Shown here one piece after another: positions 50,426 to 59,334 of a DNA stretch of 64,000 bases. Positions within the stretch are counted from its first letter, which is position 1. Every line of letters begins with the position of its first letter. Source of the stretch: Actinotalea solisilvae (GTDB taxonomy: Bacteria; Actinomycetota; Actinomycetes; Actinomycetales; Cellulomonadaceae). The stretch spans positions 124,001 through 188,000 of the forward strand of contig NZ_JADDKQ010000003.1 in the NCBI RefSeq assembly GCF_016464425.1, read 5' to 3'. Under the pieces are notes generated by a model. That model ran no database searches and was not told the origin of the DNA. It was given only the letters and a program-made list of their open reading frames with translations. The translations under genes were made by a program, and so were the position numbers.

Positions 50426-53400
50426 ATGCGCATCATCGACAACCTCAACGAGTTCCTCGGCGACGACCTTAAGGCATCGATCGAGCCGGGCTCCAAGCTC
50501 CGCATCGCGGCGAGCACCTTCTCGATCTTCGCCTTCGAGGCACTCAAGCGTGAGCTGGAATCGGTCGAGGAGCTGGAGTTTATCTTCACCGCACCCTCCT
50601 TCACGACGACGAAGGCGACCGACAAGCCCGCGCCGGAGAAGCGCCAGTTCTTCATCCCGAACGACAAGAACCGAGATGCCGCCCTCTACGGCACCGAGTT
50701 CGAGATCCGGCTTCGCAACAAGCTGACCCAACGGGCGATCGCCCGGGAGTGCGCGGAGTGGGTGCGGCAGAAGGTCACCTTCCGCTCGAACCGCACCGGC
50801 GCTCCGATGCAGTCGTTCGCAGTGGTTGGTGACACCGCCGCCTACGCGCCGCTCCAGGGCTTCACGACCGCTGACCTCGGCTACGAGCGGGGGCCGGCGG
50901 TGTCGAACATGGTGCACAAGATCGAAGACATGCCGTTCACACAGCAGTACATCCAGCTGTTCGACCAGGTCTGGCGCAACCCGGACCAGGTCGAGGACGT
51001 GACCGAGGCGGTGCGCGAGCACATCGCGAGCGTGTACGCCGAGAACTCGCCCCAGCGGGTGTACTTCCTGATCCTCTACAACCTGTTCAGTGAATTCCTC
51101 GACGACATCAGCGAGGATGTACTGCCCAACGACCTGACCGGCTACCAGGACACCGAAGTCTGGAAAGCGCTCTACAACTTCCAGCGAGATGCCGCCACAG
51201 GCGTGATCAACAAGTTGGAGACCTACAACGGCTGTGTCCTCGCCGACAGTGTCGGCCTCGGGAAGACATTCACTGCACTCGCGGTGATCAAGTACTACGA
51301 GCTGCGCAACAAGACGGTGCTCGTGCTCGCGCCGAAGAAGCTTGCCGACAACTGGACGAACTACAACAGCAACTACACGACGAACATCTTCGCGAAGGAC
51401 CGCTTCAACTACGACGTGCTCGCCCACACGGACCTCTCGCGTAATGGCGGCGAGTCTCTGGGCAAGCGGCTCGACCTGATCAATTGGGGCAACTACGACC
51501 TGGTCGTGATCGACGAGTCGCACAATTTTCGCAACGCCGACTACGTGGAGGAGCGCGAGACCCGCTACCAGCGGCTGATGCGCAAGGTCATTCGCGAGGG
51601 CGTGAAGACTAAGGTGCTGATGCTCTCGGCGACGCCGGTGAACAACCGGTTCAACGACTTGCGCAACCAGCTCGCCCTGGCCTACGAGGGCGACCCCGCG
51701 CGGCTCGCCGCGAAGTTGAACATCAAGACCTCGATCGAGGAGGTGTTCCGTCAGGCACAGCGGATGTTCAACCAGTGGTCCGATCTGCCGCCAGAGGATC
51801 GCACGACCGACGCGATCCTGGCTCGGCTGGACTTCGACTTCTTCGAGCTGCTCGACGCGGTTACCATCGCCCGGTCCCGCAAGCATATCCAGGCGTTCTA
51901 CGACACCTCCGACTTTGGAGCGTTCCCCGAGCGGATGAAGCCGGAGTCGCTGCGGCCGCCGCTCACCGACCTGCTGGACGCTCCCGCATTCACCGAGATC
52001 TTCGAGCAGCTCCAGCTCCTGACCCTGGCGGTCTACACGCCGCTGGCCTACGTGTTCCCGAGCCGCCGCGACAAGTACGAACAGCTCTACGGGGCCGGGT
52101 CGGGCCAGAACTACATGGGTGGGCAGACGGCGAACCTCGGCGCGGCGAGCCGTGAGCAGGGCATCCGCAAGCTCATGACGGTCAACCTCCTCAAGCGGCT
52201 GGAGTCCAGCGTCGAGGCGTTCCGGCTTACCTTGCACCGGCTAGAGGGAACCATTGCCGAGGCGATCGAGGCCCTCGACGACCACGCCGCGAGCATCGCC
52301 GCGATCGTCTCCGCCTTCGCGGACATCGACGCCGAGGACGACGATTTTGAGTTTCCGACGAGCGGCACCGTCGGGAAGAAGGTCCCGATCGACCTGGCCG
52401 ACATCGATGTCGATTCGTGGAACCGCGACCTCGTCAACGACGGCAACGTCATCCAGCAGCTCCTCGCCTCGATCAGCGGCATCACTCCCGAGCACGACTC
52501 GAAGCTGAAGGCGCTGCGCGAGCTGCTCGCGGGCAAGTTCCAGCACCCGCTGAACCCGGGCAACCGCAAGGTGTTGATCTTCTCGGCCTTCGCCGACACC
52601 GCCAAGTACCTGTACGAGAGCCTGGCCCCAGCCATCAAGGAGCACGGCTACGACAGTGCCCTCGTCACCGGCCAAGGCAACCCGCTTACCACCCTCGGCA
52701 AGGGCTACGGCTTCCAGCAGACCCTCACCCTGTTCTCGCCGCGGTCGAAGCAGCGACACCTCGTGATGCCGAAGGAGTCGTCCGAGATCGACGTGCTAAT
52801 CGGCACGGACTGCATCAGCGAGGGCCAGAACCTCCAGGACTGCGACTTCCTGGTCAACTACGACATCCACTGGAACCCGGTGCGGATCATCCAACGCTTC
52901 GGCCGCATTGACCGCATCGGATCGACCAACGAGCGAATCCAGCTCGTCAACTTCTGGCCCGACATCTCCCTCGACGAGTACATCAACCTCAAGGAGCGCG
53001 TAGAGAACCGCATGGTGATCGCCGACCTCGCGGGGACCGCCGATGACAACGTGCTTACGCCTGAGGCCAGCGACGCCGCCTTCCGCAAGGAGCAGCTCCG
53101 CAAGCTCCAGGAAGAGGTAATCGAACTCGAGGACGTCCGCACCGGCGTCTCGATCACCGACCTGGGCCTGAACGACTTCCGCATGGACCTGCTCGGCTAC
53201 ATCAAGGAGTACGGCGCCCTGGCCGGCACCCCGAAAGGCCTGCACGCAGTCATTCCCGCCGACCATTACAAGGGCCTCAAGCCCGGCGCGCTGTTTGTCC
53301 TGCGCAACATCAACGCCGACGAGCACCTCAACCGCGGAAACCGCCTGCATCCGCACTACCTTGTCTACCTAGACAACAGCGGCGAGGTGATCGCCGACCA

Positions 53401-53698
53401 CACCGCGGTCAAGCGCCTACTCGACCTCATCCGCGCAGGATGCCGCACCCGCGACGAACCCGCCTGGGAGGTGTGCCGTGTCTTCAACGCCGCCACCCGC
53501 GACGGGGCCGACATGGACCAGTACAGCCACCTGCTCACCAAGGCGATCCGCTCCATGATCGATGTCACCGAGGAGCGCGATGTCGACAGCCTCTTCAGCC
53601 CCGGCCGTACCACCGCCCTCGTGCAGACCATCGCCGGGCTCGACGACTTCGAGCTGATCGCCTTCCTAGCGATCGTCGAGGAGCCGCTGGATGACTGA
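50426..53698 (+). CDS. SNF2-type DEAD/DEAH helicase with PLD-like N-terminus
   Basis: 1090 residues. The N-terminal 170 residues resemble a phospholipase-D-like domain (LRIAASTFSIFAFEALKREL) without a clear HKD motif. The SNF2/SF2 helicase has Q-motif-like NFQRDA, Walker A DSVGLGKTFTA (about residue 279), DESH at 363-366, LSATPVNN near 401, and C-terminal motifs DVLIGTDCISEGQNLQ and QRFGRIDRIGS near 795-832. It translocates on double-stranded DNA. It overlaps the DUF4391 gene by 8 bases and heads a four-gene operon with type III Mod and Res genes. Such helicases occur next to DUF4391 and Mod/Res genes in other genomes; their exact role is not established. Confidence 0.88.
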   Translation: MRIIDNLNEFLGDDLKASIEPGSKLRIAASTFSIFAFEALKRELESVEELEFIFTAPSFTTTKATDKPAPEKRQFFIPNDKNRDAALYGTEFEIRLRNKLTQRAIARECAEWVRQKVTFRSNRTGAPMQSFAVVGDTAAYAPLQGFTTADLGYERGPAVSNMVHKIEDMPFTQQYIQLFDQVWRNPDQVEDVTEAVREHIASVYAENSPQRVYFLILYNLFSEFLDDISEDVLPNDLTGYQDTEVWKALYNFQRDAATGVINKLETYNGCVLADSVGLGKTFTALAVIKYYELRNKTVLVLAPKKLADNWTNYNSNYTTNIFAKDRFNYDVLAHTDLSRNGGESLGKRLDLINWGNYDLVVIDESHNFRNADYVEERETRYQRLMRKVIREGVKTKVLMLSATPVNNRFNDLRNQLALAYEGDPARLAAKLNIKTSIEEVFRQAQRMFNQWSDLPPEDRTTDAILARLDFDFFELLDAVTIARSRKHIQAFYDTSDFGAFPERMKPESLRPPLTDLLDAPAFTEIFEQLQLLTLAVYTPLAYVFPSRRDKYEQLYGAGSGQNYMGGQTANLGAASREQGIRKLMTVNLLKRLESSVEAFRLTLHRLEGTIAEAIEALDDHAASIAAIVSAFADIDAEDDDFEFPTSGTVGKKVPIDLADIDVDSWNRDLVNDGNVIQQLLASISGITPEHDSKLKALRELLAGKFQHPLNPGNRKVLIFSAFADTAKYLYESLAPAIKEHGYDSALVTGQGNPLTTLGKGYGFQQTLTLFSPRSKQRHLVMPKESSEIDVLIGTDCISEGQNLQDCDFLVNYDIHWNPVRIIQRFGRIDRIGSTNERIQLVNFWPDISLDEYINLKERVENRMVIADLAGTADDNVLTPEASDAAFRKEQLRKLQEEVIELEDVRTGVSITDLGLNDFRMDLLGYIKEYGALAGTPKGLHAVIPADHYKGLKPGALFVLRNINADEHLNRGNRLHPHYLVYLDNSGEVIADHTAVKRLLDLIRAGCRTRDEPAWEVCRVFNAATRDGADMDQYSHLLTKAIRSMIDVTEERDVDSLFSPGRTTALVQTIAGLDDFELIAFLAIVEEPLDD

Positions 53699-59200: not shown

Positions 59201-59334
59201 AGGGCATCGAAGACGCCAAGATCGAGTGCGCCCGCAAGTTCTTCGCCGCGCTCAACGGCAAGGCCCAGCACGATGGCGTGAAGTACGACGTCGTCGACAG
59301 TTTCGACTCGCTGCTCCAGTTGATTGGGGCGTGA
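56251..59334 (+). CDS. res: Type III-like restriction endonuclease subunit (Res), DEAD/DEAH helicase
   Basis: 1027 residues. The helicase has Walker A [13 protein letters not shown] (about 101-106), [11 protein letters not shown], the type III-specific IIDEPQ box near 226, LRYSATH, and [20 protein letters not shown], then [10 protein letters not shown]. The C-terminal endonuclease carries YNPDWAIAF (Asp953) and YFVAETKG (Glu973-x-Lys975), a complete PD-ExK site. It is therefore predicted active and translocates along DNA before cutting between two Mod-bound sites. It is the fourth gene of the SNF2-DUF4391-Mod-Res operon. Confidence 0.92.
   Translation: [1027 protein letters not shown]

Follow-up and report, generated by a model that had tools for sequence, protein, structure and literature searches.

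A SNF2 helicase-DUF4391-Mod-Res operon in Actinotalea solisilvae belongs to a conserved four-gene variant of type III restriction systems

Why does an otherwise ordinary type III restriction system in the actinomycete Actinotalea solisilvae carry two further genes in front of mod and res? Type III systems methylate an asymmetric site on a single strand, and the Mod2Res complex cleaves about 25 bases away; to our knowledge nearly all work on the enzymes has dealt with Mod and Res by themselves. The locus lies in the 64,000 nucleotides analysed here (referred to as the window; positions 124,001 to 188,000 of contig NZ_JADDKQ010000003.1, assembly GCF_016464425.1). It comprises the following four genes, given with their family matches.

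50426-53698, + strand: SNF2-family helicase, 1090 amino acids (aa); SNF2/Helicase_C (Pfam); PADLOC PDLC01075, 2.6e-128
53691-54371, + strand: DUF4391 protein, 226 aa; PF14335, 3.7e-43
54368-56245, + strand: Mod, type III beta-class DNA methyltransferase, 625 aa; N6_N4_Mtase; PDLC03634, 5.3e-217; EcoP15I Mod 4zcf_A, 1.1e-52
56251-59334, + strand: Res, type III helicase-nuclease, 1027 aa; ResIII and RE_endonuc (6.8e-33); PDLC03647, E = 0; EcoP15I Res 4zcf_C, 3.3e-65

A preliminary description of this DNA, made from the sequence alone, had all four genes coupled through overlaps of 8 and 4 bases. The open reading frame (ORF) coordinates confirm the four frames and both overlaps, helicase/DUF4391 (8 bases) and DUF4391/Mod (4 bases). 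The gap between Mod and Res is 5 bases, so only the first three genes overlap and Res is merely closely spaced. The helicase DNA and DUF4391 are each single-copy in the host genome, both on the same contig (C25). The catalytic motifs listed in the preliminary description were found in place and are conserved among relatives. In Mod, DPPYNTG precedes FSGSGTT, and Res has a Walker A motif, DEPQ and a C-terminal PD...ETK endonuclease. The proteins therefore have the hallmarks of the type: Mod is a beta-class amino-methyltransferase with DPPY before FxGxG and is related to type III Mod, and Res is an SF2 helicase with a C-terminal PD-(D/E)XK nuclease, related to EcoP15I Res. The usual restriction of type III to a two-gene operon does not hold for this locus, where there are four genes, conserved as four.

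Conservation of the four-gene unit

The best 80 of at least 534 confirmed helicase relatives in species genomes were used as a sample, more distant relatives falling outside it. Locus counts here and below are of family matches and are not proof of intact genes; Mod or Res frames are broken or short in L053, L055, L067, L098 and others (loci are denoted by L numbers). DUF4391 was matched in 77 of the 80 loci, Mod in 76 and Res in 74, and all four families were present in 74. Five of the six incomplete loci (L049, L060, L075, L079 and L082) run off the contig, and in the sixth, L053, Mod is truncated and the stretch examined contains no Res. By record titles the hosts include Actinomycetota, Pseudomonadota, Bacillota, Bacteroidota, Acidobacteria, Verrucomicrobia, Planctomycetota, Spirochaetes and others.

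A search with DUF4391 matched 51 plasmid records, and the neighbourhoods of 13 of these were read and scanned for open frames. In all 13, DUF4391 was preceded by a helicase match and followed by a Mod match, and Res was found in 12. In the remaining locus, L013, the record stops before Res; the record is circular (NZ_CP069372.1), and Res was found where it begins. Breaks in the plasmid loci stand beside insertion sequences, in helicase, Mod and Res of L016 and in Mod of L017 and L020. Using an E. coli plasmid helicase as query, matches were obtained in 87 of 5,426 E. coli genomes, with 80% or more of the query covered in 10, and all three E. coli chromosomal loci that were read have the four genes. 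Related arrangements are seen in a Listeria plasmid (helicase, two small unnamed genes, Mod, Res) and the Erysipelothrix phage phi1605 (helicase, a small gene annotated otherwise, Mod, Res). Of 11 annotated loci measured, seven have overlapping helicase and DUF4391 genes, and in the other four the two are 6 bases or fewer apart. Across many phyla these two genes stay together before mod-res as a closely coupled pair, and helicase-DUF4391-Mod-Res is a conserved four-gene type III variant with a fixed gene order across many bacteria. The preliminary description had called for a search for co-occurrence of the four families, and had named rare linkage of the pair to Mod and Res as one outcome that would count against it; the linkage found is strong.

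The reverse question, how often Res has the pair, was approached by sampling with the PADLOC Res profile (PDLC03647, E ≤ 1e-60). This gave 66 genomes, 23 from 396 genomes of the window's phylum and 43 from 398 of the phylum of the Stenotrophomonas locus L034. Six genomes of the second set were left out, one being already in the helicase set and five having a match that starts at a contig end or is fragmentary. With the window included, 60 Res loci were examined together with their upstream DNA. Among the 42 with at least 9 kb upstream, 25 have this helicase, one has DUF4391 only, five have a DrmD-like SNF2 helicase and 11 have neither helicase. The other 18 comprise 14 where no partner was seen, two with DUF4391 only (L170, L171) and two too short for the tree. 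In a tree of 141 Res sequences (EcoPI of phage P1 entered twice and used as root), the smallest clade holding all helicase-bearing loci, here the crown clade, has 133 sequences and a support of 0.981. Three of the 11 loci with neither helicase fall outside it, towards EcoPI, and eight inside; two of these eight (L152, L166) keep only a Mod fragment.

The DrmD-like helicases stand before mod, with no DUF4391 match, in L149, L155, L157, L190 and L194, which form a group within this Res family; three of the five, all but L190 and L194, had served to seed the search profile. Strong matches to both helicases (>300 and >600 bits) occurred in none of the loci examined. A second SNF2 protein in the same slot, with no strong match to both in these loci, suggests that the two do one job.

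Conserved order also bears on whether the four genes belong together at all, or are two unrelated defence modules that share an island by chance. The genes around the operon are as follows.

37852-44367, - strand: 2171-aa protein with HEPN_Swt1, DUF4011, AAA helicase and MTES_1575 nuclease matches; likely a further defence gene
44885-47308, - strand: NERD-UvrD helicase, adjoining the HNH_2 protein
46872-48032, + strand: HNH_2 protein, adjoining the NERD-UvrD helicase
59854-63339, + strand: McrB-like AAA protein with Mrr_N and DpnI_C-type matches; type IV system
63186 onward (L004:7186-8661): McrC gene overlapping the McrB-like gene; PF10117, 8.3e-52

Judged by these family matches the region looks like a defence island, and the McrBC, NERD-UvrD, HNH and HEPN/DUF4011 neighbours are what could be said for a chance association. 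It is nevertheless very improbable: the order of the four genes is kept across many phyla and on plasmids, whereas an McrB neighbour occurs in few loci, and overlapping or abutting genes in fixed order are found in distant hosts. The McrB-like/McrC system itself, which adjoins the four genes here, was rarely seen with the unit in the other loci examined.

The unit also collects other genes. Of the 93 loci L008-L100, 45 have further ORFs, 81 in all, inserted between the four genes; these were clustered, and one representative per cluster was checked for family. Recurrent insertions between Mod and Res are a cluster of 16 (representative Schlafen-AlbA_2 plus HATPase_c_4) and a RhuM cluster (7). 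A Bro-N cluster (6) is found in either gap, and most members of a 23S_rRNA_IVP-like cluster (7) lie between helicase and DUF4391. The inserted genes also include pairs of UvrD, DUF2130 and AAA_21 plus DUF4276. Just before the helicase of E. coli MB64 lies a gene with the annotation MADS1 helix-turn-helix (L103, 9172-9336), and small helix-turn-helix or WYL genes precede the helicase in several other loci.

Exchange within Mod and co-variation of the other proteins

Co-variation was measured as the correlation (r) of tree distances over 90 complete single-copy loci, with 999 permutations. The helicase follows Res (r = 0.956) and DUF4391 (0.938), and DUF4391 follows Res (0.907); values involving the whole of Mod were 0.659 with Res and 0.669 with the helicase. 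The observed r was reached in 0 of 999 permutations for helicase-Res, helicase-DUF4391, DUF4391-Res and Mod-Res. When Mod was divided into windows of residues, its correlation with Res was 0.86 at residues 1-80 and 0.79-0.89 from 481 to 623, and was near zero (-0.02 to 0.09) for the windows in 201-480. Saturation alone does not explain the centre, because windows of like divergence behave differently: residues 401-480 have a p-distance of 0.54 and r = 0.03, and residues 481-560 have 0.50 and 0.79. As the N- and C-terminal parts follow Res and the centre does not, the central block of Mod is exchanged among operons that are otherwise stable. The helicase and DUF4391 track Res and the two ends of Mod and do not track its centre, which speaks against a role of the pair tied to the recognition site.

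Tandem Mod genes are found in six of the 80 helicase loci (L023, L026, L044, L083, L091, L100) and also in L144 and L175. In these eight loci identity between the copies is 72-99% for residues 1-120 and falls to 38-62% for residues 121-480. Copies with alike N-termini and less-alike centres are probably two specificities sharing one Res.

Exchange of this kind could leave host DNA transiently unmethylated, as could acquisition of the operon, and the pair might then serve to dislodge or restrain Res, so that recognition regions recombine safely. Such an arrangement would fit the position of the helicase and DUF4391 genes, which come first in the operon, the exchange of the Mod central block while the pair and Res remain together, and the existence of tandem Mod copies. 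We regard it as quite unlikely, as some crown-clade loci (L165, L179, L188 and L193, for example) have Mod and Res without the pair, and EcoPI of phage P1 is without such a gene in the stretch read.

Proteins of the pair and their possible role

The helicase motor motifs GLGKT, DESHN, SATP and QRFGRxDRIGS are invariant in 38 relatives, and SNF2/RapA profiles match the protein over the motor motifs only. A PLD-like N-terminus, proposed in the preliminary description, found no support. Pfam recognised nothing in residues 1-245 of the window protein, no PLD family was matched at E ≤ 1 in any of 22 relatives, and residues 119-160 of 38 relatives show no prominent His or Lys that would fit an HKD motif. 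The helicase's best library match, PDLC01075, does bear the name 'C3a139, HKD+Snf2'; its best stretch pairs helicase residues 177-1081 with profile positions 162-945, and the HKD of the name is unsupported here.

For DUF4391 a structure model was obtained with a predicted local distance difference test (pLDDT) score of 95.1 and a predicted template modelling (pTM) score of 0.88, using 71 sequences. It has strands and helices to residue 156, followed by helices at 167-193 and 197-218, so that in the model the protein is an alpha/beta domain plus a C-terminal helical hairpin (167-218). The earlier label of coiled-coil protein suits the C-terminal part, and the remainder is modelled as the alpha/beta domain. 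P10 is invariant, and K21, W47, K50, E66, D88, E194, Q196 and N198, among others, are nearly so. In the literature searched DUF4391 is mentioned, outside any helicase-Mod-Res context.

The reading that we favour, tentatively and at somewhat short of even chances, casts the pair as an accessory motor module of Mod-Res that is independent of sequence and would most probably remodel protein-DNA complexes so that restriction works in vivo. The SNF2 protein would be an ATP-driven double-strand DNA motor, and DUF4391, with its alpha/beta domain and helical hairpin, would couple it to the constant, non-recognition parts of Mod-Res. During restriction the motor might clear roadblocks ahead of sliding Res or, alternatively, evict and recycle stalled Mod-Res. 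Head-to-head encounters and cleavage could then happen in vivo on protein-covered phage DNA, while methylation and basic cleavage would have no need of the motor pair. In favour of this reading are the conservation of the four genes as a unit, the pattern of co-variation, the slot shared by two SNF2 families and the invariant motor motifs, together with the published results on methylation and cleavage for the other helicase family, given below.

Several points weigh against this proposal. The co-variation was computed without a host tree, and genes of one operon that are simply inherited together would also correlate positively. The remodelling step rests on family analogy, namely SNF2/RapA profile matches confined to the motor motifs. 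No solved structure is related to DUF4391 by sequence, and for that reason its adaptor role is something that we infer. Finally, eight loci with room for the genes lie in the crown Res clade and have neither helicase, so some hosts, at least, can do without the pair.

In DISARM, BREX and Dpd, SNF2 proteins may block or strip invading DNA, and the pair could likewise form a second effector layer that acts alone when Mod-Res fails, on modified or site-poor DNA or in the presence of a Res inhibitor. The next-best PADLOC matches of the helicase after its own model include the defence SNF2 proteins DrmD, PLD_Helicase, BrxHI, HmaA, ZacC and DpdE, and some of the genes inserted in 45 of the 93 plasmid and genome loci are of defence-type families. 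We consider it unlikely. Among 75 helicase loci with enough contig only L053 is without Res, and that locus has a Mod fragment; the helicase is no less closely correlated with Res than with DUF4391; and Pfam and PADLOC scans recognised no nuclease family in either protein of the pair. The same scans recognised no toxic domain in the two, which makes improbable a further scheme, in which the pair would guard Res: DUF4391 would register that the enzyme is inhibited or lost and then set the helicase free for an abortive response. The tight co-variation of DUF4391 with Res is in its favour. L154 counts against it, as this locus has retained DUF4391, Mod and Res while the upstream stretch examined shows no helicase.

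The accessory motor module can be extended to a broader and more doubtful statement: type III in most members of this Res clade may be a four-part machine, in which a dedicated SNF2 motor and a DUF4391 coupler act on Res or by way of it, whatever the recognition sequence. EcoP15I would be a stripped-down form, and two SNF2 families would occupy the same position since the job is needed in vivo. If most of this large clade do carry an SNF2 motor and partner, in-vitro work on two genes misses part of the system, and a scan for Mod and Res only would label the four-gene system plain type III. DUF4391 would gain its first functional context, and type III would join the pattern of DISARM, BREX and Dpd, DNA-modification defences with an SNF2 motor.

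Comparison with known systems

EcoP15I and EcoPI have homologous Mod and Res, most alike over the methyltransferase and helicase parts, and the same mod-res order; the match to EcoPI Res covers 74% of the query, at about 30%. EcoPI of phage P1 differs in having no helicase or DUF4391 gene in front within the stretch read.

DISARM, BREX and Dpd are DNA-modification defences that include an SNF2 motor. The likeness lies in an SNF2-family protein (DrmD, BrxHI/BrxHII and DpdE, respectively) beside a modification-based defence. The window helicase is far under the curated cut-offs, scoring 144 against 610 bits for DrmD, and so below the equivalog level expected of DISARM, and 89 against 500 for DpdE. 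The genes adjoining the window operon are of other families than in these systems.

The closest precedent in arrangement is that of Murray et al. (2021), who described m4C type III systems, two of which (Eco86II and BspHIV) have a helicase-like ATPase gene 5' of mod (PMC8259958). According to these authors, such a gene lies near Mod and Res in more than 500 genomes, its role being left open; it is dispensable for methylation, and no helicase peptides were seen by mass spectrometry in partly purified, cleaving Eco86II (PMC8259958). The likeness to the window is the extra SF2/SNF2 gene before mod and res. An SNF2-Mod-Res locus of E. coli NCTC86 was assigned to Eco86II by strain and organisation. 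It encodes SNF2, Mod and Res proteins of 963, 1040 and 1126 aa and differs from the window in that mod comes directly after the helicase gene. The helicase of this locus is DrmD-like (PDLC02619, 1.3e-199), a different best PADLOC model from that of the window helicase, with which it shares 28% identity over motor stretches only; the two Res proteins are not recognisably close (BLASTP, E = 0.04). The window operon thus does not share the set of helicase, Mod and Res families of this locus and is not of the Eco86II kind as so assigned, and two SNF2 families stand before type III genes.

No description of a helicase-DUF4391-Mod-Res unit was found in the literature searched. The distinct defence system of the preliminary description therefore stands as an expanded type III with a strongly linked pair, and falls short of separate status, since a helicase 5' of mod is already published (PMC8259958) and the pair has not been indispensable in evolution. 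A helicase with type III is already in print; the four-gene unit with DUF4391 is a new variant of type III and not a new kind.

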